Shown here piece by piece: positions 7,514 through 61,744 of a stretch of 64,000 nucleotides of DNA (position 1 is its first letter; every line of letters begins with the position of its first letter). The notes under the pieces were generated by a model. It made no database searches, had not been told where the DNA came from, and saw only the letters and a list, made by a program, of their open reading frames with translations. The translations under genes and the position numbers were made by a program. The DNA is from Mugil cephalus (Eukaryota; Chordata; Actinopteri; Mugiliformes; Mugilidae), in NCBI RefSeq assembly GCF_022458985.1, contig NC_061790.1, positions 607,001 through 671,000 of the forward strand. The letters are read 5' to 3'.

Positions 7514-8792
7514 ATGGCCGCCGCGGATGGAGCCAGAGCCGCAGGTTTGGGAGCAGAGAGAGAAGAAGAAGAAGAAAACAAGCTCCAGATGTTGAAAGGT
7601 CAGACAGGTGTTGAAAAGCCAGACAGGTGTTCGCCGGGGAGTTCCCGGTTCATACGATCGGGAAGTTTTCATCGTTAATTTAAGGTTTCTGTCCGAGGTC
7701 ACGACAATGTCGAGTCCCTCTCAACCAGAGTCCAGCCAAAAAAACAGGCGTTTTAAGGCTCATCCCGGCGCTAGACTCAGGCTGTCTTTATTTGGTTCGG
7801 GAGAAATAAAAATTATTTCGTTCAGTTCAGCTCGGTCTAGTCCTCCATACAACCCCGAATTAATGAATTAAGCGAGCTGGTTTGTTTTCAGCCCATTGAA
7901 ATGTCAGACTAATGGAAATGTGTTCTTTTCAATGTAGTTTTGACCTGAATCACCTGACCCTCTCTATTTGTACCTCGTGTCTCACTGTACCTGTACCTAT
8001 CTCACTGTACCTGTACCTATCTACCTGACCCTGTCTACTCATGTACCTGTTATTCACCTGACTATCTCTTACCTGTCCATCACGACCCTGTCTACCTGTA
8101 CCTGTACCTATCTACCTGACCCTGTCTCACTGTACCTGTACCTATCTACCTGACCCTGTCTACCTGTACCTGTACCTATCTACCTGACCCTGTCTACCTG
8201 TACCTGTACCTATCTACCTGACCCTGTCTACCTGTACCTGTACCTATCTACCTGACCCTGTCTACCTGTGCAGGTGCAGCGTTCCTGACCACGGTGGCGT
8301 CTGCAGGGATGATCGCAGGCTTCGGCTCCACGTTGGCGTTGGCCAAGAAGAAGAGTCCGGAGTGGTTCAGTAAGGTACAGGACTAGAGGTCCGGCTCCGT
8401 CTTCATCGGTGCTGAATGTAGAGGCCGCTTTAAACGAGTCGTTTCCTCCACAGGGCGTCACGGCGACGGCGTCGGTCCCGGAGGGCGGAGCCTCCCTGGC
8501 CCTCAGGGCTCTGGGCTGGGGGTCCCTGTTCGCCTGGTGTGGGGTCGGTCTGCTCAGCCTCTCGGTGTGGAAAGCCCTCGGAGTCCACAGTGTACGATCT
8601 TTAGAGGCCAACTCTGCTATCACGCTAGGCTAATGATAAATATGTTTTTAACTTCAATCCTTGTCATTTTCCCAGTTGCCAGAGTTCCGACAGAAGATGC
8701 AGTCGCTGTTTCCGCCCATCCCGAAGAGCTCTGAGGCTGCAGCTGGATCTGAACATCTGGACTGGGACTCTGTGTTTAAGTCCACGCGATGA
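7514..8792 (+). CDS. tmem242: Transmembrane protein 242 (complete, 4 coding exons)
   Basis: Coding exons are 7514-7598, 8274-8374, 8454-8591 and 8676-8792. All borders are GT/AG and phases agree, giving 146 codons plus TGA. The product matches vertebrate TMEM242 (human about 141 aa) in the segments 'AKKKSPEWF', '[11 protein letters not shown]' and '[15 protein letters not shown]', then 'KMQS.FP.IPK'. Two hydrophobic helices lie at about residues 30-50 and 78-98, with a charged loop containing KKK between them. The N-terminus is acidic and poorly conserved, as in the family. Human TMEM242 is a mitochondrial inner-membrane protein reported to help build the ATP synthase c-ring and associated complexes. 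The start is the first ATG in the conserved frame, in context aagATGg. It lies tail to tail with arid1b, as in human. Intron 1 carries a minisatellite ending at the 3' splice site. Confidence 0.95.
7960..8272. repeat. Minisatellite in tmem242 intron 1, about 34-bp unit
   Basis: Units of the form 'tacctgtacc' plus 'tatctacctgaccctgtc' repeat about nine times, perfect near the right end. The last unit runs straight into the acceptor 'ctgtgcag' of exon 2 at 8273, so the repeat supplies the pyrimidine-rich tract of that splice site. Confidence 0.9.
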
Positions 8793-11707: not shown

Positions 11708-14700
11708 CTAGAGACAGCACAGCACATGGACACCGATTAGTACTGTTCCTACGGCCACAATGGAAATGGGCAAGAGAGCTTTAAGTAGGGATGTAATGAT
11801 GCGTCAAATCAGCGGAGGTGAAAAATGTTAAAGAGTAAAATATGATTTAGAGTTTTTATGCATCCAAGTACAGACGCTTTTTAAATATGCACTCATTGAA
11901 TAGTTTGTGTGTGAAGTTACATCCGAGCTCAAAAACGATGAGAAATACTTTGATTCGTTTAGGTTCCTGCTGCAGCGACGTGGAACGTTCTCAGTCAAAC
12001 TGTAACCGAGTGTGTGATAAACTCCATCAGCTTCATGCGGAGACGTTTTCTTTTAGACTGAATGTGTAACTTTATTTGTTATTTGCATCGTGTGTTGAAT
12101 CTGATTTTAATGATTCGGTCTCTCACTTCGTCCCCTCCTCACCCCTCTCACCTTCTTCACGCTCAGGACTCCTCCCCCCGTCGTCTTCCTTCCTGTCCAG
12201 GTGCTGTGGGGGGGCGGAGTTTCCTGTGCGAGGCTCAAAGTGCGTCTGAATGTGAGCGGTGGAGTCGCCTCCTCCCGCCTTCCAGTGCAGGAGGCCACTG
12301 ATGAACCCGTTGGGTCGGCTGAGTTTAGCCCAGCGCTCCTCCACCTCCTCCCACTCCTCCCCCGTCTCCTCCACCTTGATTGGCAGCTTGTCGTACTTGC
12401 TGGCCTGTCGGAGGGGGGGCTGGGCCTCCTCCTGGTGGTCCTCCGTCACCTCCACCTCATCTCTGAGGGCAGGTTTGCTGTCCTCCGTCTCCTCTGCAGG
12501 GGCTGTGTGCAGCAGCGCCGTCTCCTCCACCTCCTCCGCCTCCTCCGCCGTCCTCCGGACCTTCTGCTCCTCCACCGTCCGGCTCTCAGGCTCAGGTGTT
12601 GCAGGCAGCAGGTCGTCCTCCTTGGGGAGGTGTCCCAGCAGCGTCCGCCGGCCCTCAGCTCCCACCTCGTACTCCTCCAGGATCCCAAACATCTGGATAA
12701 GGCAGCGACGGTAGAACTCCACAATGAGCTCCAGGAAACCAGGGAGCTACGAGAGGGGGGAGGAGTCAGAGGAGGAGTCAGAGGAGGAGTCAGAGCAGGA
12801 CACCACCCAGGACACCACCCACCACACAGACCAGGACACAGACCAGGACACCACCCACCACACAGAGCAGGACACCACCCAGGACACAGACCAGGACACC
12901 ACCCAGGACACCACCCACCACACAGAGCAGGACACCACCCACCACACAGACCAGGACACCACCCAGGACACCACCCACCACACAGACCAGGACACAGACC
13001 AGGACACCACCCAGGACACCACCCACCAGTCAGACCAGGACACCACCCAGGACACAGACCAGGACACCACCCACCAGTCAGACCAGGACACCACCCAGGA
13101 CACAGACCAGGACACCACCCACCACACAGACCAGGACACCACCCACCAGTCAGACCAGGACACCACCCAGGACACAGACCAGGACACCACCCAGGACACC
13201 ACCCACCAGACAGACCAGGACACAGACCAGGACACCACCCAGGACGCCACCCACCAGTCAGACCAGGACACAGACCAGGACACCACCCACCAGACAGACC
13301 AGGACACCACCCACCACCCAGGACACAGACCAGGACACCACCCAGGACACCACCCAGGACACAGACCAGGACACCACCCAGGACACAGACCAGGACACCA
13401 CCCACCACACAGACCAGGACACCACCCAGGACACCACCCACCAGACAGACCAGGACACCACCCAGGACACCACCCAGGACACCACCCACCACACAGACCA
13501 GGACACCACCCAGGACACCACCCATCTGGTTGTATGTTTTCAGCTCTAGTGTTTGAGGGTCTGACCTGCGTCAGGTTGAAAGAGCCGACGGTGCCGTCGT
13601 CGTACAGCAGGATGTTGATGGTGTCCAGCGCCCAGGTGCTCTCTGCCAATAGGCCAGACTTCAGTGACATCATCACCCGCCACGCCTCCGGGGTTCCTGA
13701 CCAATCAAATCACAGAACCAACGTCAGCTGAGAGACCGAGTGTGTGTCAGAGTGTGTGTTGTGTGTTGTTGCGAGTCTGACCCGTGTCCTTGGCCGTCAG
13801 TCGTCGTCGTGGTTTCACTTTGGGGGCGGCGGCCTCCACAGAGCCTGGGGGGAAGCTGACTTCTCTGGGGACGAGGGGGAGGCCCTGGGTGGGCTGGGCC
13901 CCCGGTGGGGCCCCTGGCTTCTTCATGGAGGACAGATAGGGGGTGCTGTTTGGGGACAGAGAGCCCCCCAGGGGCCGGGGGAAGGAGGAGGGACTGTGAG
14001 AGCGGGTCACATGGTTAGGGACAATGGGCGCGCCCTGGAAGGAGGAGGGGGGGTTCCTGGAGGGCAGGGGGGGCATGGAGGAGGAGGAGGAGGAGGATGA
14101 GGAGGAGGAGGAGGAGTGGGGGGGGTACGGAGGTTGTCGCTGGCTCATGTGACTGGGGGGCCACTGGTTGTCCTGGTGGACTCTGCCCTCCTGGTCATCC
14201 CCCCGGTTCATGCCAGGATACGGGGGGCCCTGGCCCTGCCGGCCGTACGTATACCCCACATCTGTCCTTGGGTGCCACATGCTGGCCTGTGGCCCCTCCC
14301 CAGGGCCCCCGGGCACCTGTGACGGCCCTGAGCCCATCATGCCATGCTGTGGGGGCACCTGACGATCTCGACTGTACGGATAGGGGAACTGACCCTGGAC
14401 GGGCCGACGCTCGGGGCCCATGTAGCCCCCCCCCGGCCCCCCGAAGGGCCCGAACATGTCGGACTGTTGAGGGCCGTACTGCTGGGAGCCAAGGGCCTCC
14501 CCCTCATGGCGCTTAGCCGCCGGATACACCCCCTCCATGGGACGCTTGTAGCCCTGAGACACAGAAGACTTTCATCATCACTGAGTCACAAAATCACACG
14601 ACAACAGACACAGCTACACAATAATACACAACAATAGAAGATAACAGAGAATAATACACAATAATACAACAGACAACACACACCAGCCGTTTGTCAGGTT

Positions 14701-38874: not shown

Positions 38875-40322
38875 CTTGTTTTTCAGGCGCTCGGACTTGT
38901 AGACGTTCTTTAAGTCGTCCTTGATTTCTGGACAGGCCTTGTCACTTTTGGTGAGGACGATGACTTGAGGAATCTCTGTCAGGACAACGAGCAGAGAAAC
39001 ACTGAGTCCTGTAGTGAACGCACACAAACATGCAAACACACTGCGGCAGATGGTGTTTGATAGAGGATGTCAGAGGAAAACTTAAAACACAGTGATTTCT
39101 GCTGTTTCCCAGTCGACTGGCTTCCATTCTGATATTCCCAATTTTCTTCATAGTTTCATCTCCAACAGACGCTGTGTCGGCAGGAAGGACACAAACCAGA
39201 ACGTGCACCTTGTCACTGGGATTTGGGTTTTCATTGTAGAATCGATCATCCTCTGTTATTATTACATTACTGTTAAACTGAAAATAAAAGTGAATTCAAT
39301 TGAATGACTTTTCCAACACTTAGTCCAATTAATCATTTACTATTTTTCTTTAGGAAAAAGTTGTCATAGCTGAAGTATCTGTACCTCGTATCCCTCTGTA
39401 ACGTGTCCCTTTAAAGCCAGTTTGACGTCATCCTCTTGGACCCCTTGGCTGCTCAGGCCCATAATGTCACTGAAGACGAAAGGGAAACATGACTCTGGAC
39501 GGGTCTTAATCCTGTAGGTTCTGAACTATAACACACATGTGGAGAAACGTGTGGTTATTCTAATTATTACAGAGTCGACCCCGGCATATTAGTAGGTTAA
39601 GAGATTACATTAAACCATATAAGGCGATTTTAGTTTTTCACACTTGTGTTACAGTTTTCTCTTTGCAGTTGGGTCGAGGCTTCCCAGTCTTACCAGACCA
39701 TGCACAGCAAGTGGGTTGTTGTGGATTGTTATTGTCCCTAATCCACATTAAATTTACTTGCTTTGTTATTTCACTATACACTTTTTCACACAATTAAATG
39801 TTGTTCATACCTTCATGGTGAAACTGTGATCAGAAGTGTTGTCAGCCAAAGCCAGCTTGTACATTCTGCTGTGGAAGATACTGTTGACGGAGTTGATGAA
39901 ACTGGACTTTCCTGATCCAGCTGGTCCGTGAAGGAGGATCCTGAGCTGCTGTCCTTCGACCTGAGGTTTGCATTTCTCCACATACACAAAAGGAAATTAG
40001 ACTAAACTGATTTTTTAGATTTTGGGTTTTGTACTTAACATCCAGATATGTCACAGCTGGTAAATTAATAATGAAGGAAAACAAGAAAAGTCTGTCTAAT
40101 ATTTGACTCATTTGTAGAAACATTAACTAATGATGGTTTTAACAAACTCACCCCCAATTTATTGTCCTCCATGGTGTACTGGAAACTTAAAACATGTCCA
40201 CATACAAAAAAACATCATGAAGATGTCAGCAAACAACAGTGTGTCATTCTCTATAAATTACAACAACAGTGATTTTAATTAGTCTTACGAGATGCATCAG
40301 ATTTGGATTGACTTCCTCCCAT
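38875..40322 (-). pseudogene. IFI44-like GTPase gene, decayed copy (exons 1-6; last exon missing)
   Basis: Exons homologous to the intact gene at 42.8-46.5 kb: 40289-40322 (MGGSQSKSDAS), 40152-40185 ('PWRTINWG'), about 39811-39975 (P-loop '[14 protein letters not shown]'), 39385-39525 ('[10 protein letters not shown]'), 39109-39277 ('VHVLVCVLPAD') and 38875-38975 ('[14 protein letters not shown]', with the guanine-specificity-type TKSD). Faults: (1) no acceptor before exon 3 keeps the conserved frame; (2) the exon 5 donor is GA where the intact gene and the third fragment have GT; (3) the C-terminal exon is absent, replaced by the GATA repeat, and read-through of exon 6 stops after about 10 codons. 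Exons 4 and 6 are otherwise open, so decay is recent or the locus makes an altered product. IFI44 proteins are interferon-induced cytoplasmic GTP-binding-like proteins. Confidence 0.8.
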
Positions 40323-42768
40323 GCCTGCAAAATGCACAAGAAAATGTTTTTCAATGACTTAAGGAGTAAGCAGATGTTTAGAATCCTAACTGAGTTAGAA
40401 CTGAGTGAAACAATGAGACACCATGGATAGCACTCTCTTGGTACCGTCTCTGTCAACATGGGAGTTAGCACAGTTAGCATACGGCACATACACAACACAC
40501 AGGCAACTTTATGTTATTACAGTTACAGATACAAATATTGTTGGCGGTAAAGTACCAGTCTGCTCTCTCCATTCACTCCATTCTCTCCAATGCAAACATT
40601 TGGACAGAGAAACAGACGGACCCCTGTTTTTTTAAATCAAGCCTGTATCCACAATATTTACTCTAGAAAGACCAAAAAACAAACATATCAAAGTGTTCGG
40701 GAAGGTTTTAGGACGCCCACGGTCTGCTCGTTTGTCTGATAGGAGCTACTGTTTGGTCACAGTGAGATTCCTCCACGCCCATGTGTCCTGCTGCCGGTGT
40801 CGCGCCAGGATAGTTACCGTTTACCGTTACCAAGATTATTACGTTTCTTCGCTTCGGTTTGTCAAAAAGGTTTTTATTCTGCTGTATGCTACTGTTAACC
40901 TAAATTTATACTATTCAGTGTTCCACATTCACAATGTCGTATCTTTTTCCTCCTATAATCTGACAGTGGTATTTAACCATTATGGGCTACACGATTACTT
41001 AAGCTGTGAATTCAAGATGACATCGACTCGAAATGTAGGCTACATTAAACCATAAATGTTTGTTATTTTGTGGGTATTTCAGGTCACACACTAGACAGAT
41101 GAGGCACTATCATCTTGTGTTTCATTTTGTGAGTATTTAAGGTCATGTCTAGTAACGCTGGTGAGTATGGAGAAGTTTACTCTATCCTGGCTCAAATTAA
41201 GGGGGATTCTTATTATGGCGGAGAAGCGAAGAAAGCTCCACACTCCCTGAGCGTATGCGCGCTCCCGCGGCAGGGGGATAGCAGTCCTATCGGCACGACA
41301 CCTGTCACTGCTTTGGGGCTGGAAGGAAGAAGGAGGGAGTCGTTACCATGGCTACAGGACACAAACGTATTTGCAACGGCAGTCTATCGGTTATTCAAAA
41401 TAATCCTCATATGCTTTCATAACAATGGCTGGATACGATCGATGTGCCGTGTACGGATGGAGCAATGACCGCCGATATAATTCCAAGTAAGTTTATATGC
41501 TTATGTCCGTAGATTTCTTATTAAATTAATTCAATTAACATTCACATTTCACTACTTTTATTACTTTTATTTACTTTCTATTGTTGTTGCATTAATTTAC
41601 CGGCTCCCCTTAACGTCCCTGAGTTCAGAGACAGCACTACTCGAGCTGTAAGCGCCCGTCAGGGAGGCTTCCTGCAGGGAGGCTTCCTGCAGGGAGGCTT
41701 CCTGCAGCTGGGTCCGAAGTGGAGTCAGTTGTGGTGGCTCACTACACCCCTTACCTGGATCTGTGCACTTGGAACGGGCCAGGTTATAATCTAAAGGCTA
41801 CATGGAAGCCCTGGGGACATTAAATAGTTTTAAGTGGAATCGACGAGTGTGACCAATAAGAGCCAGGTATCAGAGCTGCCATTCAAGTTGCCTTTAGTTT
41901 TACTTACATCAGACAGTGGAACAAAATAGGGGAAATAATTGTCAACAAAATTCTTCTGACGTTTTAGAGTCAGATTTTATTTGTAGGTTCAGCTTTAGCA
42001 ATGCAACAGCTCAAAAATCAAGCAAAACCAAAATCAGATAATTGTTGTTAAAATAATTATAAAATGAGATAATCACTCAAGAACTTAAATCACTGTTGAT
42101 AAATCAATATGAAAATACTTGTAAAAAATAATTACTTATTAGCTGGACACATGAAGTAGGGGGAGAGAAAATTTCTAAAAAATGGTCGATGCGAACACAC
42201 CTGAATCCAGTCTGTTACTGCCACAGCGAGGTGGTGAAACAGGGACGTTCCCAGTGAACATCGTCACAGCCAAAGTAGCACTGTAGGGGAGTTGGCTCAG
42301 TTCACACACAGCACAGTCCTGAAATACACTTCTGCATTTACTCTTTTATACTCCTAACACATCCTACATATAGTGCATTATCACGACTAACCATCATGCC
42401 AGCGTTTCTATAAGGGTCTGACACTCATGACTTATTAATCAATACTTTGGACATTAGATCGTTTTCTGTATCTTTCCACTAACCGTGTCTGAACGTGTCC
42501 TGACATGGCCTAAGGAAGGCCTTGACCAGTTCATCTTTTTCTAGATTACCCAGCAGCTGTATCCTGTTTTTCTCATCACACATTAGTCACATTTCTTCAA
42601 CTACTATTCATATGATATTCTGTGTATAATATTTTATTCAGTGAGAATCAACACAATAAGTCAACATTAGCCAAAACAAGCCAAAAAGTTTTGATTCTAC
42701 ACATAGTACCATACTTTAACTGAAATCTCAACTCACTGGACAGCGCATCTAGCATCTAGACTTGAACT
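40323..42768. other. Intergenic spacer between the two IFI44-like units
   Basis: Upstream region of the decayed copy and downstream region of the intact gene. It contains a 17-bp tandem triplet of 'cagggaggcttcctg' type at about 41658-41708. No further IFI44-like exon, ISRE or other gene was recognised. Confidence 0.5.
41658..41710. repeat. 17-bp tandem repeat, 3 units
   Basis: Three successive copies of cagggaggcttcctg with a 2-bp linker (gc/ca). Confidence 0.85.
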
Positions 42769-45700
42769 CTAGTTTTGGTTGCTGGCGTCATCTGCAATAG
42801 TGATGATGTTTCTCAGGGTGTTCAGGATGAGAGCGTTGATGTCGTCGTTCAGGTTGGTTTCTGAATGGTAGTTCTTCACTGGGAAGATGCAGTTGACGGG
42901 GATGCCCACATTTGCACTGAACTTCTCAATCTACATTTGAGAAATCACATTTCAGTTCAGACTTTATAGATCTGACTTCAGATCAAAAGAAAGCGTTATG
43001 CTGAACTACTGAGTGACTTAAGCATCTATTACCTTTGTCTGTAGCGATTTGCTCCTGTAGACATTCTTCATGTCTGTCTTGATCTCACGACAGGCCTCAT
43101 CAATTTTGGTGAAAAGGGCGACTTGAGGAATTCCTGCTCAGGGGAAACAAAAGACACACAAGTCAAACCATTACTTTACCCTGACTGATGTTCCCTATGG
43201 AGATAAGATTTGTAAAAGGAAGCCAGTGCATATGGCATGAAGGGTTTGTAATGTGACTAACTGTCCTCTTAAGAAGTTTTACAAGTAGTTAGTTCAAAGA
43301 AACCCAAAATGAAATGCAGTAAACAAGTCATTTCTGCTCTCACCAAGTTCAGTTGCTTCATCTCTTATGTCGCATAGTGTTTCCACAACATCAGAATCCA
43401 TCAGGTGTGCTGTGTTTGCATCAATGACAAAAACCACAATGTGCACTTTGTCGTTGTCTGTTGGAGCATTGTTGTAGCATGGGTCATTCTTTGGTATTTT
43501 ACTTTCAGGATTGAACTGAAAGACAAAATGACAAATAGTTAAATGAACGCTTACAAAGATTAACATATAAATTAATAGATTAGTATTACATTTAATGTAA
43601 GAGCTTTAAAAATGTGGTGACTTTACCGTGTAGTCATCTTTCACTTTTCCCTTCATCACCAGTTTCATATCTTTCACATGGATTTTTCTGTTTCTCCTTC
43701 CGGCGTGTTTCAGGCCCATCATGTCATTTAGGACGAAAGGGTAAAAGATTGTTCGGTTTCCTTTCTCGATCTTGTAGGTTGTATACTGTGAACCACACAA
43801 AGAGTAAGATGCAGTTATTATACCTGTCTTGTCTGGTTCAGTTGTGCTTGTGTCCTTAAAGGTGCTTTCATTAAGCGTATTTCAAAGGAAAACACTACAA
43901 ATTATGTGCATCCACATGTTCTTACAAGTCATTAGGATAACCTTTGCACATTTTATCAGAAAAAGATGAAATGATGCGAAGTCTGATAATATGCATGTGT
44001 GATTTCAGTTGGAACCTAAAGAAATGTGGAGTGTGGAGTCTATCTACGGTTAATTCTGTTCAAAGCAGTGAGTCCATGTATATTTGTATTATGTTAACTG
44101 TTAAGGAAAAAATGACGGTGTCTCGTTTCAAAGTTTTACTTGCAGCAAGCAGCCGATACATGTACTACAGCAAGTACAGAATCAACTGATGATCGTTACA
44201 CTGACTTTTATACAGTAGATCCTGTCTTAGAATGGAGACAACCTTGTTATAGAGACAGACTGTCAGCATCATTGGATGGTTGGATGACTTCATGCTGCAT
44301 CTGTGGGACCTTACATCTACTATTTGGTGAAGACGATCAGAGAGAATATCTTGTGTAAAAGTTTAACTTCTGTATTTTTCCAACATTAACACACTTGGTA
44401 ACATGTTTTGAGCAGGTTAAGAGACAAACCTGACATGTAAACATAAGTACATAACGCCGTTTCCGTTACTGAAAATTAAATAGGGCGCGTTACTTGGTTC
44501 TCAGCTACGGGAGCCGCGAAGCTGTTGCATGGGTGATGATGATTGGCTACGGTGCAGTAGGCTTTTACGATAAGCCAATCAGAGGCAGCGTTCAGTTTAT
44601 ACACAAATCACACCAAACCAGCAGAGGGAAGCGGCAGCGATGCTGAATGTGGAGGAAAAGCTGCAGCCGTCACTCTGTTGGGTTTTTAGGGGTTAATAAG
44701 GCCTCCAGCCTGTGTATCACCTTGGGAAGAATCAAGAAGAATGTTTCTTACGCTATCTCACCATATCAATCGTCGTCTTTCGCTTTGCTACTGCTGCTCA
44801 CAGACTAGGACACATTACACCCTGATATCTCACATGCTGGAGACCAGATGAAGCTAATCAGCTACACATAGAAACTCACTGACACATGAGAGGCAGGACT
44901 CCTCCCCATTGTCTTACGGGCGGGGTCTAGGTAGAATAAAGTCACTGTACGTCCCTGAGGTGGAGCTTTTGGTTCTTCTTGCCCCTAAGGTGAACTGACC
45001 AAAGCCTCAGCGCTGAAATCAATATCTGTTCTCTGTGAACCAAATAAATTTCCAAAACGTGAGAAAATGTTGCGTGATTTGTTCGTAGGTGAACGACCCT
45101 TTCCACACGGTATAAAGATCCTGGGCTGAAGGAGAGGAAAAGATCCTCCTTCCACAGGTTTTTCTCTCTGATTCATATCTGCCTGTTACATTCTGACTCT
45201 ACTTCCTGACAGAATGGATCAGTGTAGAAGCTTCAGCTCAGAAACTAGTTTCGATCTTCTCCCATAAAGACTGATCTCTGAAGGACACAGATTGTTGATC
45301 CTTTTTTTTCAATTAAACTAAATTTGTCACACAATGGTTAATGGAAGCTCATAGGTGAATGGTGACTATTTATTTCTAGTTTGTACAGAGCGCTGCCATG
45401 ATGGTTAACGTGGGAGATCACTGTACAAGCTGGATATAAACACAGTCACCGTTGCCTATGCGCTTCCATTAACCATCGTGTAACAACACATTTGATTTGT
45501 TTTATTGAAAAAAACTAGCTGAGAACCAAGTCAGACGATAATAGACAGCATTAGTTTGTAACGAGCCCCATTTAATTTTCAGTAACGGAAACGGCGTTAC
45601 AACGATGGAAACAGTAATTAGATTACTCCGTTACTGAAATAAGTGACGCTGTTTATTTAAACCTGGTTATTCCCATCACTGTACTGCTTCTACTTCCTTA

Positions 45701-46456
45701 TGAATCTCCACCACTAACATCTCTCTTCTTTCTGGTACTGATGCCTTGCTCACTGCTCACAGCCCCAGGCGTCCACACCCCTGCTGTACGGACCTATGAT
45801 AACCCCTATGCCTGAGAACAGCCTGTGCTTGCTGCACGACCTTCCTTGAATTCCATTACCGCTACCAGCCTCAGCACACTTAAACTCCTCCGTCTTATGT
45901 TAAACTTGTTAGCTCAGATTTAAAATCTAAGATTTTACACAACTTTATACTTTACACAATCAAAACTCCTTTGTACCTTTTTGGTGAAGCAGCCACGACC
46001 GATGTTATCGACCATAACCTGACGGCACAATTTGCCTTGTAAGGCACTTTTCACAGAGTTGATGAAACTCGACTTTCCAGCTCCAACTGGTCCATGAAGA
46101 AGAATCCTGAGCTGCAGATCCCGTCTCTGAGGTTTGTAGTTGTTCAGATACTGTAGATCATCCTGTGTATTCCTGCTCAGGGAAGGAGACTGATTTAGCT
46201 GCCGTTATCTTGGATGATTCTGTAACAGAAAATGGTGGAAAACTGCAGCTTTCTGTGGAGTGTAAACACACTTACCCCCAGTTTATTTGCCTCCATGGTT
46301 CATCCAGAACTGATAAGTCACATGTTGAAGAAAGAAGAACGGTCAATGTACAAACATGTGATTCAGTATATGATCAGCTGAACTATTGTTCTGTTTTTAG
46401 GTACCCTTACGTGGAGGAGGGGAAGGTGGATCAGATGTAGAAAACCATCCTCCCAT
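42769..46456 (-). CDS. Interferon-induced protein 44-like GTPase (complete, 7 exons)
   Basis: Exons: 46411-46456, 46276-46309, 45977-46172, 43627-43785, 43344-43515, 43033-43133, 42769-42930. All are GT/AG, phases close, and the product is 289 aa ending at TAG. Features: N-terminal MGG (Gly2, possible myristoylation), '[11 protein letters not shown]' (residues 17-27) typical of fish IFI44-like proteins, P-loop GPVGAGKS at 54-61, '[10 protein letters not shown]' (G3-like region), '[10 protein letters not shown]', TKID at 211-214 as G4-like motif, and a C-terminal 'NYHSE..LN.DINALIL' helix region. The IFI44 family comprises interferon-stimulated antiviral or antiproliferative proteins. GTPase activity is not well established. 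Intron 3 (43786-45976) carries a nested DNA transposon. Two ISRE-like sites lie upstream. Fish have many IFI44-like paralogues, so I give no symbol. Confidence 0.92.
44452..45599. mobile_element. Palindromic DNA transposon (hAT-like, non-autonomous) in IFI44-like intron 3
   Basis: A perfect 30-bp inverted repeat starts taacgccgtttccgttactg at 44452-44481 and is mirrored at 45570-45599. A second arm pair cttggttctcagct lies at 44493-44506 and 45517-45530. The element may extend right to about 45688, where 'ttcccatcactg' resembles the end of fish hAT elements (cagtgatgggaa). There is no transposase ORF. The interior holds a second hairpin. Confidence 0.75.
45329..45481. repeat. Internal hairpin within the transposon
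   Basis: Left arm 45329-45366 (contains acaatggttaatggaagc) and right arm 45445-45481 (contains gcttccattaaccatcgtgt) are imperfect reverse complements over about 37 bp around an 80-bp loop. Confidence 0.8.
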
Positions 46457-57422: not shown

Positions 57423-60347
57423 TTAGCCCTGTAGCGTGGGCACGGTGGCCTTCTGCATCCCCAGCACGGCGTCGTAGAAACAGTCCTCGTTGACCATGGA
57501 GGTCATGCTCTGAACGCTGAAGTCTCTCTCCAGCAGGCTGCCCAGCTCCAGCACATCTCCTGCAGAGCTCCATCTGCTCTCCTCTCCTCGCTCGGCCTCC
57601 TCCTCGGCGAAGTTCAGCCTCTGTAGCTGGGCCTCCAGCTCGCCGGTCAGCGAGCAGAGTCTGGTCCTCTTCCCCGCGGAGGCGGTGGCGGCGCTGTGCC
57701 GGTGGCTGGGCAGCAGGGGCTCGGAGCAGGTATCCCCCAGGAGGCTGTCAGGTCTCTGGGCCTCCTCAGGCCAACGAGGAGGCGTCCTCTGGGCGTCAGG
57801 GCCACAGCGCTGCTGCCTCCTCCTCCAGGAGCTGCTCCGCTCGGCTGTGGACGGCCTGGTCCTCCTCAGGGAGCCGGCGGGGGCCCGGTCTCTGATGAGG
57901 GACCGTAGAGCTCGCAGAACGCTGGCCTTCGTCTCCAGGCCACTGAAACAGAAACACCACGAAGCTTCAGCTTCATCGACTGATAACAGGGAGACAGTCT
58001 GCACATGTTGCTCCAAACGCAGCGTGACCACGTTAGTCCTGTCCCTGCTGCTTTCCACTCGCCGCCTGCTCGTTTTAGAATAACACTGACATTTTACCGA
58101 GCCCCTGAACACACCGCTACACAGAAATCCTGTTTCTTTGTGTCACCTTGGCTTTTTATCCTTCATCTTTGATTGATTTTAGTTTTAGTTTCATTCTATT
58201 GCTGTTTCAGCATCAGTGCAATGATCACTTTGTATCTGAACCACACTTTAGTTCAGTGCGTCAGAAATAAACTTTGACTTGTGTTATGTTGTTGATACGA
58301 TGACCGACAGATTTAGAAGAAGTTTTGGTACGAACAGAAGATGAGGTTGTTTTATCATCGACAAAAATGTCCATCACCTTCTCCAGACGTGGATTTTCTA
58401 TTTTTCAGTAAACTAACATCTGGAGGTAACTGGTCTCTATTAACTGGTGACGTGTCTCAGTCCTGGTGTGAATCTGGACCGAGACGATGTTTGTACCTGC
58501 TGCACAGCTGGAACACCGTCTCCGGTCGACCCTCCACCTCCGAGCGGCTGTGAACCAGCTCCCAGACACACGGGTCCTCGGAGCCTGGAAACAAACCACA
58601 GAGTCGGCTCAGACCGGCAGAGCGCCCCCTGGTGGAGGAGCTGCTGTAACTACACATACGCAGATCTCCACCGCCCTCTGATTGGCCACTGACCTGTGAC
58701 GTTGGCCGGTCTGACCTGGACGGCTGAAACTGGGATTAACCAGCGGAACCTGAAGGGGTCCAGATCAGCTGAGCGGGAGCCGGTCTGTCCAGCACCACAT
58801 AAACACACACACACACTGATTGGTTATTAACTCATTAACTTAATTTTGCTTTTCTACCCAAAGAGGCTTTAAATAGTTATAGATATGGAGGAACAGAACA
58901 TGCATGAGTTGGTGAGCAGGGAAAAAGAGACATTTCTGTGTCTGTGTTTAGGCAGGAACAGGCTTCCACAGAGATGTGAGTAAAACTAAATGCAATCAAA
59001 CCAAGTCTGGTCTGAAACGTTTTAAAAACGTTACGGACCATGTTCAGGTGTGAGGTAAAGAGCAGGACTGGACTCACCGTCCTCTTCTTCAGCTTGCAGC
59101 TCTCCCTGTAAACCAGGATGACGGCCTGTTTGAAGACTGACAGGAGCAACAGAAGCTACGTTATGAACGTTCTGGTCTTCGTGGCAGAGAAAACCAAAGA
59201 GAGCGCGCTCTTACCGAACAGCGTGAGCTCCGGGTCCTTCCTCAGACGACCCAGACAGGGCAGAGGGTTCAGCCACACCACCGCCGAGTGCACCAGGAAC
59301 TCCCCCATCGAGATCTCCCTCACCTGGGAGCAGGAGTAGGGACACTTTTTGATTCAGTCCATCTTCAGATGAAAAGCTTTATTAGTCTTTTTTATCCGTC
59401 ATAGGTTCAGCCGGCAGAGTTTTTAATTATTACATTTAGTCATAACAACATTTCACATGTCACCAGATACTTTCTCTATGAAATATGATGAAGTTTATAT
59501 GTGTAAATATCAGATATGAGCTGTCATTGATCATTTATAAGGTTTGATCAGCGTTTACAGCAGAGCAGCGACTTTAATGGACGTTTTAAGCTAAATGCTA
59601 ATGCTAATCCATTAGCCGCTCTTCTGTCCACTGTTCACATGTGTCAGTAAAAGGTCAGGTAGCAGGTAACGGCCTCAGCTCAGATCTACGTCAGACGCTG
59701 GTTTCTGCGTTAACACTGACGTAAGAACTGAGGGCGACGCCCCTTCTCCAGTCACATGACTGGGTCGCACAGATTTAATCCACGTGCTCTACCTGCCGCC
59801 TGTCAGCGCTCTGCTCTGCAGTCAGCTGATCGAACACGCAGCCGTAGTCCTCGTAGATCTTCTGCATCTCGTTGATGTGACTCGCCACCTTCTCCATAGC
59901 TCGCAGCGCCTCTGAGTGGACACGAGAGGAACAACAGCTGATTAGCATGTCCACAGCTAAAGGTGCTAAAGGTGCTAGAGGTGCCCCCTACAGGCTGGAG
60001 TCCTCACTGCACCCTCCGCCATACAGGTGTCAGAGGTGTGTGTGTTACCTTCCAGGTGTGTGTGTGTGTGTGTGTGTGTGTGACCTGTCAGGTCTGTGTA
60101 TGTGTGTGTTACCTGTCAGGTGTGTGAGTGTGTGTGTGTGTGTGTTACCTGTCCGGTGTGTGTGTGTGTATGTTACCTGCCAGGTGTGTGTGTGTGTTAC
60201 CTGTCAGGTGTGTGTATGTGTGTGTGTGTTACCTGTCAGGTGTGTGTATGTGTGTGTGCGTGTTACCTGTCTGGTGTGTGTGTGTGTGTTACCTGTCCGG
60301 TGTGTGTGTGTGTGTGTTACCTGTCCGGTGTGTGCGTGTTACCTGTC

Positions 60348-60388
<41 letters not shown>

Positions 60389-61744
60389 CTGTCCGGCGTG
60401 TGTGTGTTACCTGTCAGGTGTGTGTGTGTTACCTGTCAGGTGTGTGTGCTCGGGGCTCTCGGGGTCGGTCATGGACACCAGCTCTCGGAGCAGCAGTGGA
60501 TACTTCAGGACCCTCTGAACAGGTTTGATCAGGTAGGACTCCAGAGACGATGAGTGCTGATTGGTCGGGTTCCTGGCTTCCAGGAAGTGCTTGAAGGCGC
60601 CGTCAGTTTTCGCTGCATCACAGACGCAGGTTTAAAGTTTCAGTGGAGTCATACATTCAGACTAAAATAGGTTTGTTCTCTGATCGTCACCTCTCTCCAG
60701 AACCTTCTGGACTTTGATGTGGTTGGCACAGAAGCCGCTGTAGAGCTTGAAGTGGTCGGCGTAGTAAAGAAAGGATCCACCCAACGAGAACAGGAGCTTC
60801 TGGAAATGAGAACAGACTCAGAGAGTGAAAACTAAAGAACAGCCTGAGCAGAGGTCACTAAAAACACAATCTGCAACAACCAACTAAAATACGGATACAA
60901 CAACAAGGAAAACATGTAGAAAATACTGTAGAATAGGACATGATGCTAAAAGTAAAATCTATCTATAAATAAATGACTGATTGAATCAACAAAACCAAAC
61001 TAAACCGTCACCTTGAACTGTTCAGGTGTTTCCAGGCTGCTGAAGTTGGGACAGGCAGCGATCCTCTCCTCCAACGTTTGGAGGAAAACTCTCTGGAAAT
61101 CCAACATCTCAGGAAGACTGCCAAACAGCGCCTCCATCTGACAGAGACAGGTAGTGTCAGACAAACCAGAACCACCTAACCAGCGTTCACTCGTCTTTCT
61201 TTGGTTTTTACCTCGTCTTTACTGAGGAAGGTCTCCCTCTGCAGCGGCGTCAGGTAGATTTCAAACAGACAGACCAGATCCTGGCAGAGACAAAGACAAT
61301 CCGTCACTAAACACTCATTCATTTCACTGTTCGGTTTGAGTGATGATATATTACAGAAGAATAAATAAAACACAACAGCTGTTTCACAAAAGACTGAGCA
61401 ATACTGAGACATATTAGTGGTTTATTTTTTAAATTTGAATCCAGATTCATTGATCTTTTTCTTTATTTTCTTCTTATATGTGTATTTGCGGTGTAATTGT
61501 GGTGTTAGAGTTGCAGTGGAGCAGCCGTCTGACTTGCTTCACGTCTCTGCAGCTTTCTGACCTTGACGTAGGACTTCTCGGTGTCGACCAGCTCCTGGAT
61601 GACTTTACGTAGGCGCTGACACGCGCTCAGGTGGGCGGGGCTCGCCGGTTGCAGGCCGGCCTCTCTGCCGTACGGGTTCTTGGGAATGTTGGCCGCTTGG
61701 CCTTCTGGGAAGGTCCGATACAGCGAGTAGACCTGGTCCATGTT
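57423..61744 (-). CDS. tiam2: TIAM Rac1-associated GEF 2, 3' half (DH-PH and C-terminus), 5' incomplete
   Basis: Exons: 61562-61744, 61212-61280, 61012-61137, 60691-60799, 60433-60612, 59793-59911, 59215-59323, 59078-59136, 58694-58784, 58497-58584, 57423-57942. All are GT/AG and in phase: 550 residues then TAA. DH domain: '[17 protein letters not shown]', '[15 protein letters not shown]', '[23 protein letters not shown]', '[20 protein letters not shown]' (the key conserved helix) and '[15 protein letters not shown]'. PH domain: '[18 protein letters not shown]', '[10 protein letters not shown]', '[14 protein letters not shown]'. The C-tail (about 170 aa) is divergent. TIAM proteins load Rac1 with GTP at the membrane. 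TIAM2 over TIAM1 rests on synteny with cldn20 and arid1b, since the DH-PH is similar in both. N-terminal PH, RBD and PDZ exons are not in view. Confidence 0.93.
59997..60437. repeat. Minisatellite containing the tiam2 5' splice site, about 14 units
   Basis: On plus, units are gttacctgtcaggtg followed by variable (tg)n. On the transcript strand each unit reads (ca)n-cctgacag/gtaac-(ca)n, the same as the real end of the exon 60433-60612 and its donor. Unit starts lie near 60044, 60108, 60145, 60173, 60196, 60228, 60262, 60288, 60317, 60339, 60384, 60406 and 60428. Confidence 0.92.

Follow-up and report, generated by a model that had tools for sequence, protein, structure and literature searches.

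Minisatellite origin and intron growth are both unsettled questions. The closest described systems are human loci in which tandem repeats take in splice sites. For intron 18 of ABCA7, a variable number tandem repeat (VNTR) is described in which the first GT of an array of 25-bp units is the donor of exon 18; use of the next unit's donor retains 25 nt, is out of frame and is described as subject to nonsense-mediated decay (NMD), and it accounts for 2 ± 1% if the two figures in the paper's text follow the order of the events (PMC5954066). By the same account the array ranges from 12 to about 427 units across the population and skipping of exon 19 rises with array length; the ABCA7 case shows that arrays of this kind can bear on disease risk. 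In human IFI6 (6-16, G1P3), minisatellite units are reported to serve as alternative donors, giving three mRNAs (Turri et al. 1995, cited in PMC4526556), and in human segmental duplicates variable internal tandem repeats at exon-intron boundaries are reported to alter splicing (PMC2812944). Here we analyze a 64,000-nt stretch of the Mugil cephalus genome (NC_061790.1, positions 607,001 to 671,000, forward strand; hereafter the window) in which an intron of a tiam2 gene holds an array that repeats the splice junction at its start. We consider that this array is probably a splice-junction minisatellite, seeded by the junction itself, with functional mRNA made from the exon-proximal donor; its recurrence at other exon ends suggests that splice junctions can seed repeat arrays.

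Encoded on the minus strand of the window is the catalytic portion of a TIAM gene, with RhoGEF (Pfam) and PH_Tiam1 domains. The tiam2 exon in question (60433..60612, minus strand) encodes part of the DH (RhoGEF) domain, as judged from its frame, its Pfam RhoGEF match and a PDB search matching Tiam1 (1FOE) over 58 residues (E=4.1e-23); its coding end ...GAGCACACACACCTGACAG is followed by the donor GTAACACAC, and its translation ends SPEHTHLT in phase 1. The array (60036..60448, minus strand) starts within this exon: the last 16 exonic bases, CACACACACCTGACAG (60433..60448), constitute its first unit and encode H-T-H-L-T, where the paralogues have H-Y-H-L-T/D. It comprises 14 donors, the true one and 13 decoys, spaced 22-46 nt apart with CA-rich tracts between them; the last bases before these donors, the true one first, are 60433, 60411, 60389, 60343, 60321, 60293, 60267, 60233, 60201, 60177, 60149, 60113, 60085 and 60049. 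Six of the 14 units contain CCTGACAGGTAAC exactly, seven differ from it by one base and one by two, and the 9-mer CAGGTAACA is common to 12 of the 14 donors. The junction 21-mer CACACCTGACAGGTAACACAC occurs 14 times at up to 3 mismatches, against no occurrence in 100 shuffles, and at a shift of 22 nt the sequence is identical to itself over a run that spans the exon-intron boundary, made up of 16 exonic and 13 intronic bases. The array begins at the exon's own donor, and the downstream units bear equivalent donors (9-mer identity, equal scores). Donor positions, 21-mer count and shifted identity together confirm what a preliminary description had proposed, namely that the array repeats an exon end with its 5' splice site. 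The figure of about 14 given there suits the donors in total, the copies in the intron being 13 besides the original; the rule that every unit is exact or a one-base variant holds for all units except that with two changes; and the array ends near 60036, not at 59997. The intron (59912..60432, minus strand; donor and acceptor read) is 521 nt long, its final 124 nt lying outside the array and ending in a normal acceptor (TCCACTCAG), and the next exon (59793..59911, minus strand, 119 nt) starts AG GCG CTG CGA (E-A-L-R). A test for stronger conservation of the donor core within the units gave Fisher p=0.028, but we do not accept the signal, since variants that spread by duplication are not independent. 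On the plus strand, 60036-60448 contains up to 12 donor-like sites in 400 nt, since the core CCTGACAGG is a near palindrome.

In a 9-mer model based on an assumed frequency table, 11 of the 13 decoys score 6.95 bits, the same as the true donor; the other two decoys score 6.79 and 2.89, the weakest being CAGGTCACA (last base before it 60085, minus strand), and the scores of three further donors in the gene are 7.02, 6.14 and 5.07. These 12 equal sites also share a predicted U1 duplex of -8.0 kcal/mol, and predicted pairing within the pre-mRNA does not set the true donor apart from the decoys either. The idea that decoys are weaker than the true donor is thus ruled out for 11 of 13 by both score and U1 pairing, and the ladder of near-identical decoys that had been proposed is borne out; as neither measure marks the true donor, position and context must do so. 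Only the first decoy (+22 nt, last base before it 60411, minus strand) precedes the TAA (60407..60409, minus strand) that is met on read-through in the exon frame, overlaps the GTAA of this decoy and terminates the open frame 60407-60631; by translation, its use shifts the frame, with a stop 43 codons further. Decoys 2-13 all meet an in-frame TAA eight codons beyond the junction. The expectation that decoys would insert either His-Thr-rich or frame-shifted sequence stands for the frame shift at +22, while an in-frame His-Thr insertion into an intact guanine nucleotide exchange factor is excluded, all 13 decoys giving a stop or a frameshift: since no decoy is in frame without a stop, the proposed protein consequence does not follow at this locus.

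Comparison with paralogues indicates what changed. A search of the species' own genome (635 Mb, 24 contigs) with the tiam2 exon gave ten matches at E<=0.001, four of which cover the exon nearly whole: the window copy on C21 (contigs are denoted C1, C2 and so on), one on C17 with 83% identity, and those on C9 and C15 with 74%. Across the junction the window copy and C17 read HLTEAL whereas C9 and C15 read HLDVAM, and on this ground we take the former as the tiam2 pair and the latter as the tiam1 pair, assuming that human TIAM2 and TIAM1 differ in the same way. In the C17, C9 and C15 genes the intron lies at the same codon (the exons end CACTACCACCTCACCG, CACTACCACCTAGACG and CACTACCACCTGGACG), which rules out a gain of the intron by tandem duplication, and none of the three homologous introns contains an array. 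HYHL is found in all three and in the PDB Tiam1, HTHL in the window copy alone, where Thr ACA in place of Tyr TAC brings the exon end into exact agreement with the array unit; in the last 28 exonic bases C17 agrees with the tiam1 gene of C9 at 24 positions and with the window copy at 19. Over 259 codons the window copy and C17 differ by a nonsynonymous divergence (dN) of 0.10 and a synonymous divergence (dS) of 1.37, the latter near saturation, and the tiam2 gene remains under coding constraint.

Such ladders recur in the genome. Three copies of CAGGTAAC within short gaps are matched 501 times genome-wide, against 0 for the reversed pattern, which rather than the GT-to-TG swap CAGTGAAC served as the comparison; genome-search counts of repeats are lower bounds. 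Among the matches listed, there are at least 10 arrays, all on C1 and two of them with one common unit. Nine were read: five start at an exon end in sense, in a CaV gene (Pfam CAC1F_C on both sides), an HCFC1 gene (with a proteolytic repeat in the same locus, matching host cell factor 1), a plexin (TIG_2 over the joined exons) and two unnamed genes (L050, L055); three (L058, L059, L060) are at neither a donor nor an acceptor junction; and in an mGluR6-like gene (gapless alignment of its joined exons to mGluR6) it is the acceptor junction that is repeated. This acceptor-side counterpart (L057 ~970-1230, within C1:27323201-27325400) consists of CTGTCTCAG followed by GTGGA, five exon-start bases, in a 36-nt unit of 3.4 copies with 100% matches, open in frame. 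The listed arrays cluster in the middle of C1, at 27.0-28.2 Mb of 54.45 Mb, and C1 is much longer than the other contigs seen; the cluster would fit a fused former chromosome end. Two further patterns were followed. GCAGGTAAC has two matches in one array on C2, with a 20-nt unit starting inside the exon of a gene that we presume to be TMEM178, its only Pfam match being Claudin_2, below the cut-off. CCAGGTAAC has 71 matches, listed in full, which fall in 13 arrays, 10 of them starting at an exon donor in sense: besides the plexin array, which is at a junction, and L060, which is not, nine of the 11 others begin at a donor. These nine are in RALGAPB (joined exons matching the solved protein), MED15 (joined exons likewise matching), PP2A B56, ankyrin, LRR, Piezo, RING-finger and IQGAP-like genes and the unnamed L075; for the RING-finger gene we assume an RNF4-like identity, and the IQGAP-like label is likewise our assumption, as domain and protein searches including PDB gave no match for its exons. 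L067 (no gene seen) and L068 (beside an opposite-strand gene) are not at donors. Six of the 13 arrays (on C5, C9, C11, C13, C16 and C23) lie within ~155 kb of a contig end, those on C1, C4, C7, C18 and C20 lie further away, and tiam2 is at 0.67 Mb. Altogether, the CAGGTAAC-type arrays read, tiam2 included, number 22, with 16 donor junctions and one acceptor junction.

Ladders of CAGGTRAG are also abundant (873 matches against 48 in the control and 95 for the GT-to-TG swap CAGTGRAG), but it would be unsafe to take these as donor ladders, for only one of seven such arrays read is at a donor junction (L050). One, in a laminin gene (L020), is in sense but starts ~190 nt away from the exon end, two (L051, plexin; L052, TSC22) are antisense beside acceptors, and no adjoining exon was seen at L035, L038 and L049. 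The laminin-beta-like array (L020 1285-2000, C1:23801715-23802430) contains 35 sense CAGGTRA words in one intron. The minisatellites at L051 (~2330-2400) and L052 (~880-1442), antisense to CAGGTGAG-type words and directly upstream of acceptors, are pyrimidine-rich and AG-free in the gene sense.

Exon sequence itself appears to be copied into these introns. For 14 of the 16 donor-junction arrays, the span reported by Tandem Repeats Finder (TRF) reaches into the exon, covering between 3 and 27 of its bases. When the longest run of exon tail found before a decoy was compared with the tails of 104 other CAGGTR sites of the window, all from outside the tiam2 array, it exceeded every control in 11 of the 16: plexin (27 nt), B56 (25), ankyrin (20), IQGAP-like (18), tiam2 (16), L050 (14), CaV (13), MED15 (11), RALGAPB (10), TMEM178-like (9) and HCFC1 (7). 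The direction can be read in B56: its exon, 25 of whose last bases are in the array, is identical at 37 of 37 residues to solved mammalian B56-delta, which marks the exon as the old sequence and the array as its copy. The 219 exact-word decoys of the 16 arrays (those of the IQGAP-like and B56 genes read to the end of the stretch with no acceptor assigned, the CaV acceptor being a guess) lead to a stop in 202 cases and to a frame shift in 10, and seven stay in frame. All seven are in the plexin-like gene (L056 1285-2099, C1:27282785-27283599), where a 33-nt unit (27 exonic bases plus the donor; 24.7 copies, 96%) adds 11 residues per step, such that the first seven of 20 exact decoys would give +11 to +77 residues; no PDB match to the joined plexin exons was found, nor a plexin paralogue for the same exon pair.

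The CA tracts on either side of the tiam2 donor point to slippage between flanking direct repeats as a possible origin. Short direct repeats flank the donor (CACACACAC, present in both exon and intron), and slippage or unequal exchange between them would duplicate the segment in between, which is the donor. Because the first unit of the array is the exon end, a valid donor can survive an exchange of this kind, and the array can lengthen or shorten with the gene kept alive. Conversion of the exon end to the units at 60389, 60267 and 60177 would give Leu to Arg, Leu to Gln and Thr to Ala, respectively. The exon-proximal donor would then yield nearly all functional mRNA, and decoy products would carry premature stops and be removed by NMD; for the +22 decoy we expect use at a few per cent, the level given for its counterpart in ABCA7, and exon inclusion may depend on the length of the array. 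For the genome as a whole, the balance of the evidence favors the view that CAG/GTAAC-type splice sites are recurrent nucleation points of minisatellites at which exon tail and donor are duplicated, leaving introns made largely of their own splice-site copies, rewriting exon ends and, through the in-frame decoys of plexin, providing a source of protein-length variants. For one motif, the majority of the listed arrays start at exon ends, and in some of them at least 20 coding bases are copied, which makes junction seeding directly testable; each array is also a natural experiment on how the spliceosome selects a single donor from a dozen identical sites.

Several observations weigh against junction seeding. 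For AAGGTAAG, ladders show no enrichment (15, compared with 72 for the control); therefore a donor as such is insufficient to seed arrays, and the notion that any donor can do so is unsupported. Five of the 22 arrays are not at junctions; the TRF span begins 34 nt (RING-finger, L066) and 47 nt (B56, L070) into the intron; and five of the 16 copied tails do not exceed all controls, their lengths being reached by 1 (L075), 3 (LRR), 5 (L055), 13 (RING-finger) and 104 (Piezo) of the 104. The window copy of tiam2 has more unique changes than C17 (14 against 5 when C9 is the outgroup, 12 against 6 when it is C15), a weak signal of relaxed constraint that we do not adopt as an explanation. Moreover, its CA-rich tail could have come from a microsatellite that grew into the exon. 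In such a history an ordinary (CA)n tract would have arisen where the intron begins and spread from there into the exon; the donor would be an interruption caught up in the growing repeat, and the junction would have no special part. The CA-rich units of tiam2, whose spacers vary in steps of two, and the CA-rich arrays of the CaV and HCFC1 genes are consistent with it, but other junction arrays are not CA repeats and have long unique tails (among them those of plexin, B56, ankyrin and L050), and we regard it as unlikely. We are similarly doubtful that a dispersed minisatellite family with a recombination- or replication-prone CAGGT core lands in the introns of gene-dense regions and that selection merely tolerates those of its members that overlap donors. 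Such a family would account for the CAGGTRAG and CAGGTAAC excesses, the CAGTGRAG count, the lack of enrichment of AAGGTAAG and the several antisense arrays next to acceptors; against it, the units vary by locus to match the local exon end, and 10 of the 13 listed CCAGGTAAC arrays stand at donors.

Two other explanations assign the array a function. The decoys might form a regulated ladder that lowers tiam2 output via NMD or, by recruiting many U1 small nuclear ribonucleoproteins, keeps the transcript protected, a use with which the equality of 11 of 13 decoys to the true donor in 9-mer and U1 pairing, the failure of predicted pairing to distinguish them and the low-level use of the next unit in ABCA7 would agree; however, array length and spacing show no sign of conservation, and we consider it quite improbable. 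Recursive splicing, with each CAG/GTAAC a ratchet point for stepwise removal of the intron and the mRNA unchanged, is scarcely credible here: each unit has AG next to GT, and CTGAC is similar to a branch point, but CA tracts stand before each AG in place of the pyrimidine tract of a ratchet point, and the tiam2 intron is only 521 nt, whereas the published cases, as described, concern long introns. We therefore retain the splice-junction minisatellite as the preferred explanation.

The window also contains a claudin, a BAF250 gene and a DUF1358 gene; CLDN20, ARID1B and TMEM242 are presumably the corresponding neighbors of human TIAM2. On the plus strand at 8084-8273, a 34-nt minisatellite stops 4 bases short of the acceptor of a DUF1358 exon, which we take to be TMEM242-like; it has no AG in 186 nt and five CTGAC words, like repeated branch points. 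A minisatellite fills an arid1b intron (12747-13566, minus strand), with no AG in 735 nt, and its CTGGTGGGT words score 7.95 as donors. Between arid1b and the claudin (~39800-46200, minus strand) lie repeated open reading frame fragments, GTPase-like in appearance, which we assume to be IFI44-like.

As described, the ABCA7 array resembles that of tiam2 in starting at an exon donor; RNA and population data exist for ABCA7 only, and as the description has its array starting with the donor, copying of the exon tail as in tiam2 is not comparable from it. The IFI6 variants are reported to encode different isoforms (PMC4526556), whereas the tiam2 decoys all give a stop or a frameshift, and the repeats of segmental duplicates are described within recent paralogues, where they form novel introns (PMC2812944), whereas the tiam2 intron is old and common to paralogues. 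Intron gain by tandem duplication of AGGT-containing sequence, as it has been described, likewise duplicates an AG next to a GT, but in tiam2 no new intron results. A literature search, covering titles and the starts of abstracts, found no paper in which splice-junction minisatellites are described as a class that recurs across a single genome. The preliminary description had supposed that few cases exist in which a junction is the repeated unit; this agrees with what is in print (ABCA7, IFI6) but not with the recurrence at other exon ends of the same genome. The splice-donor VNTR is thus a kind already known from single genes, and its recurrence across one genome may be the part that is new.

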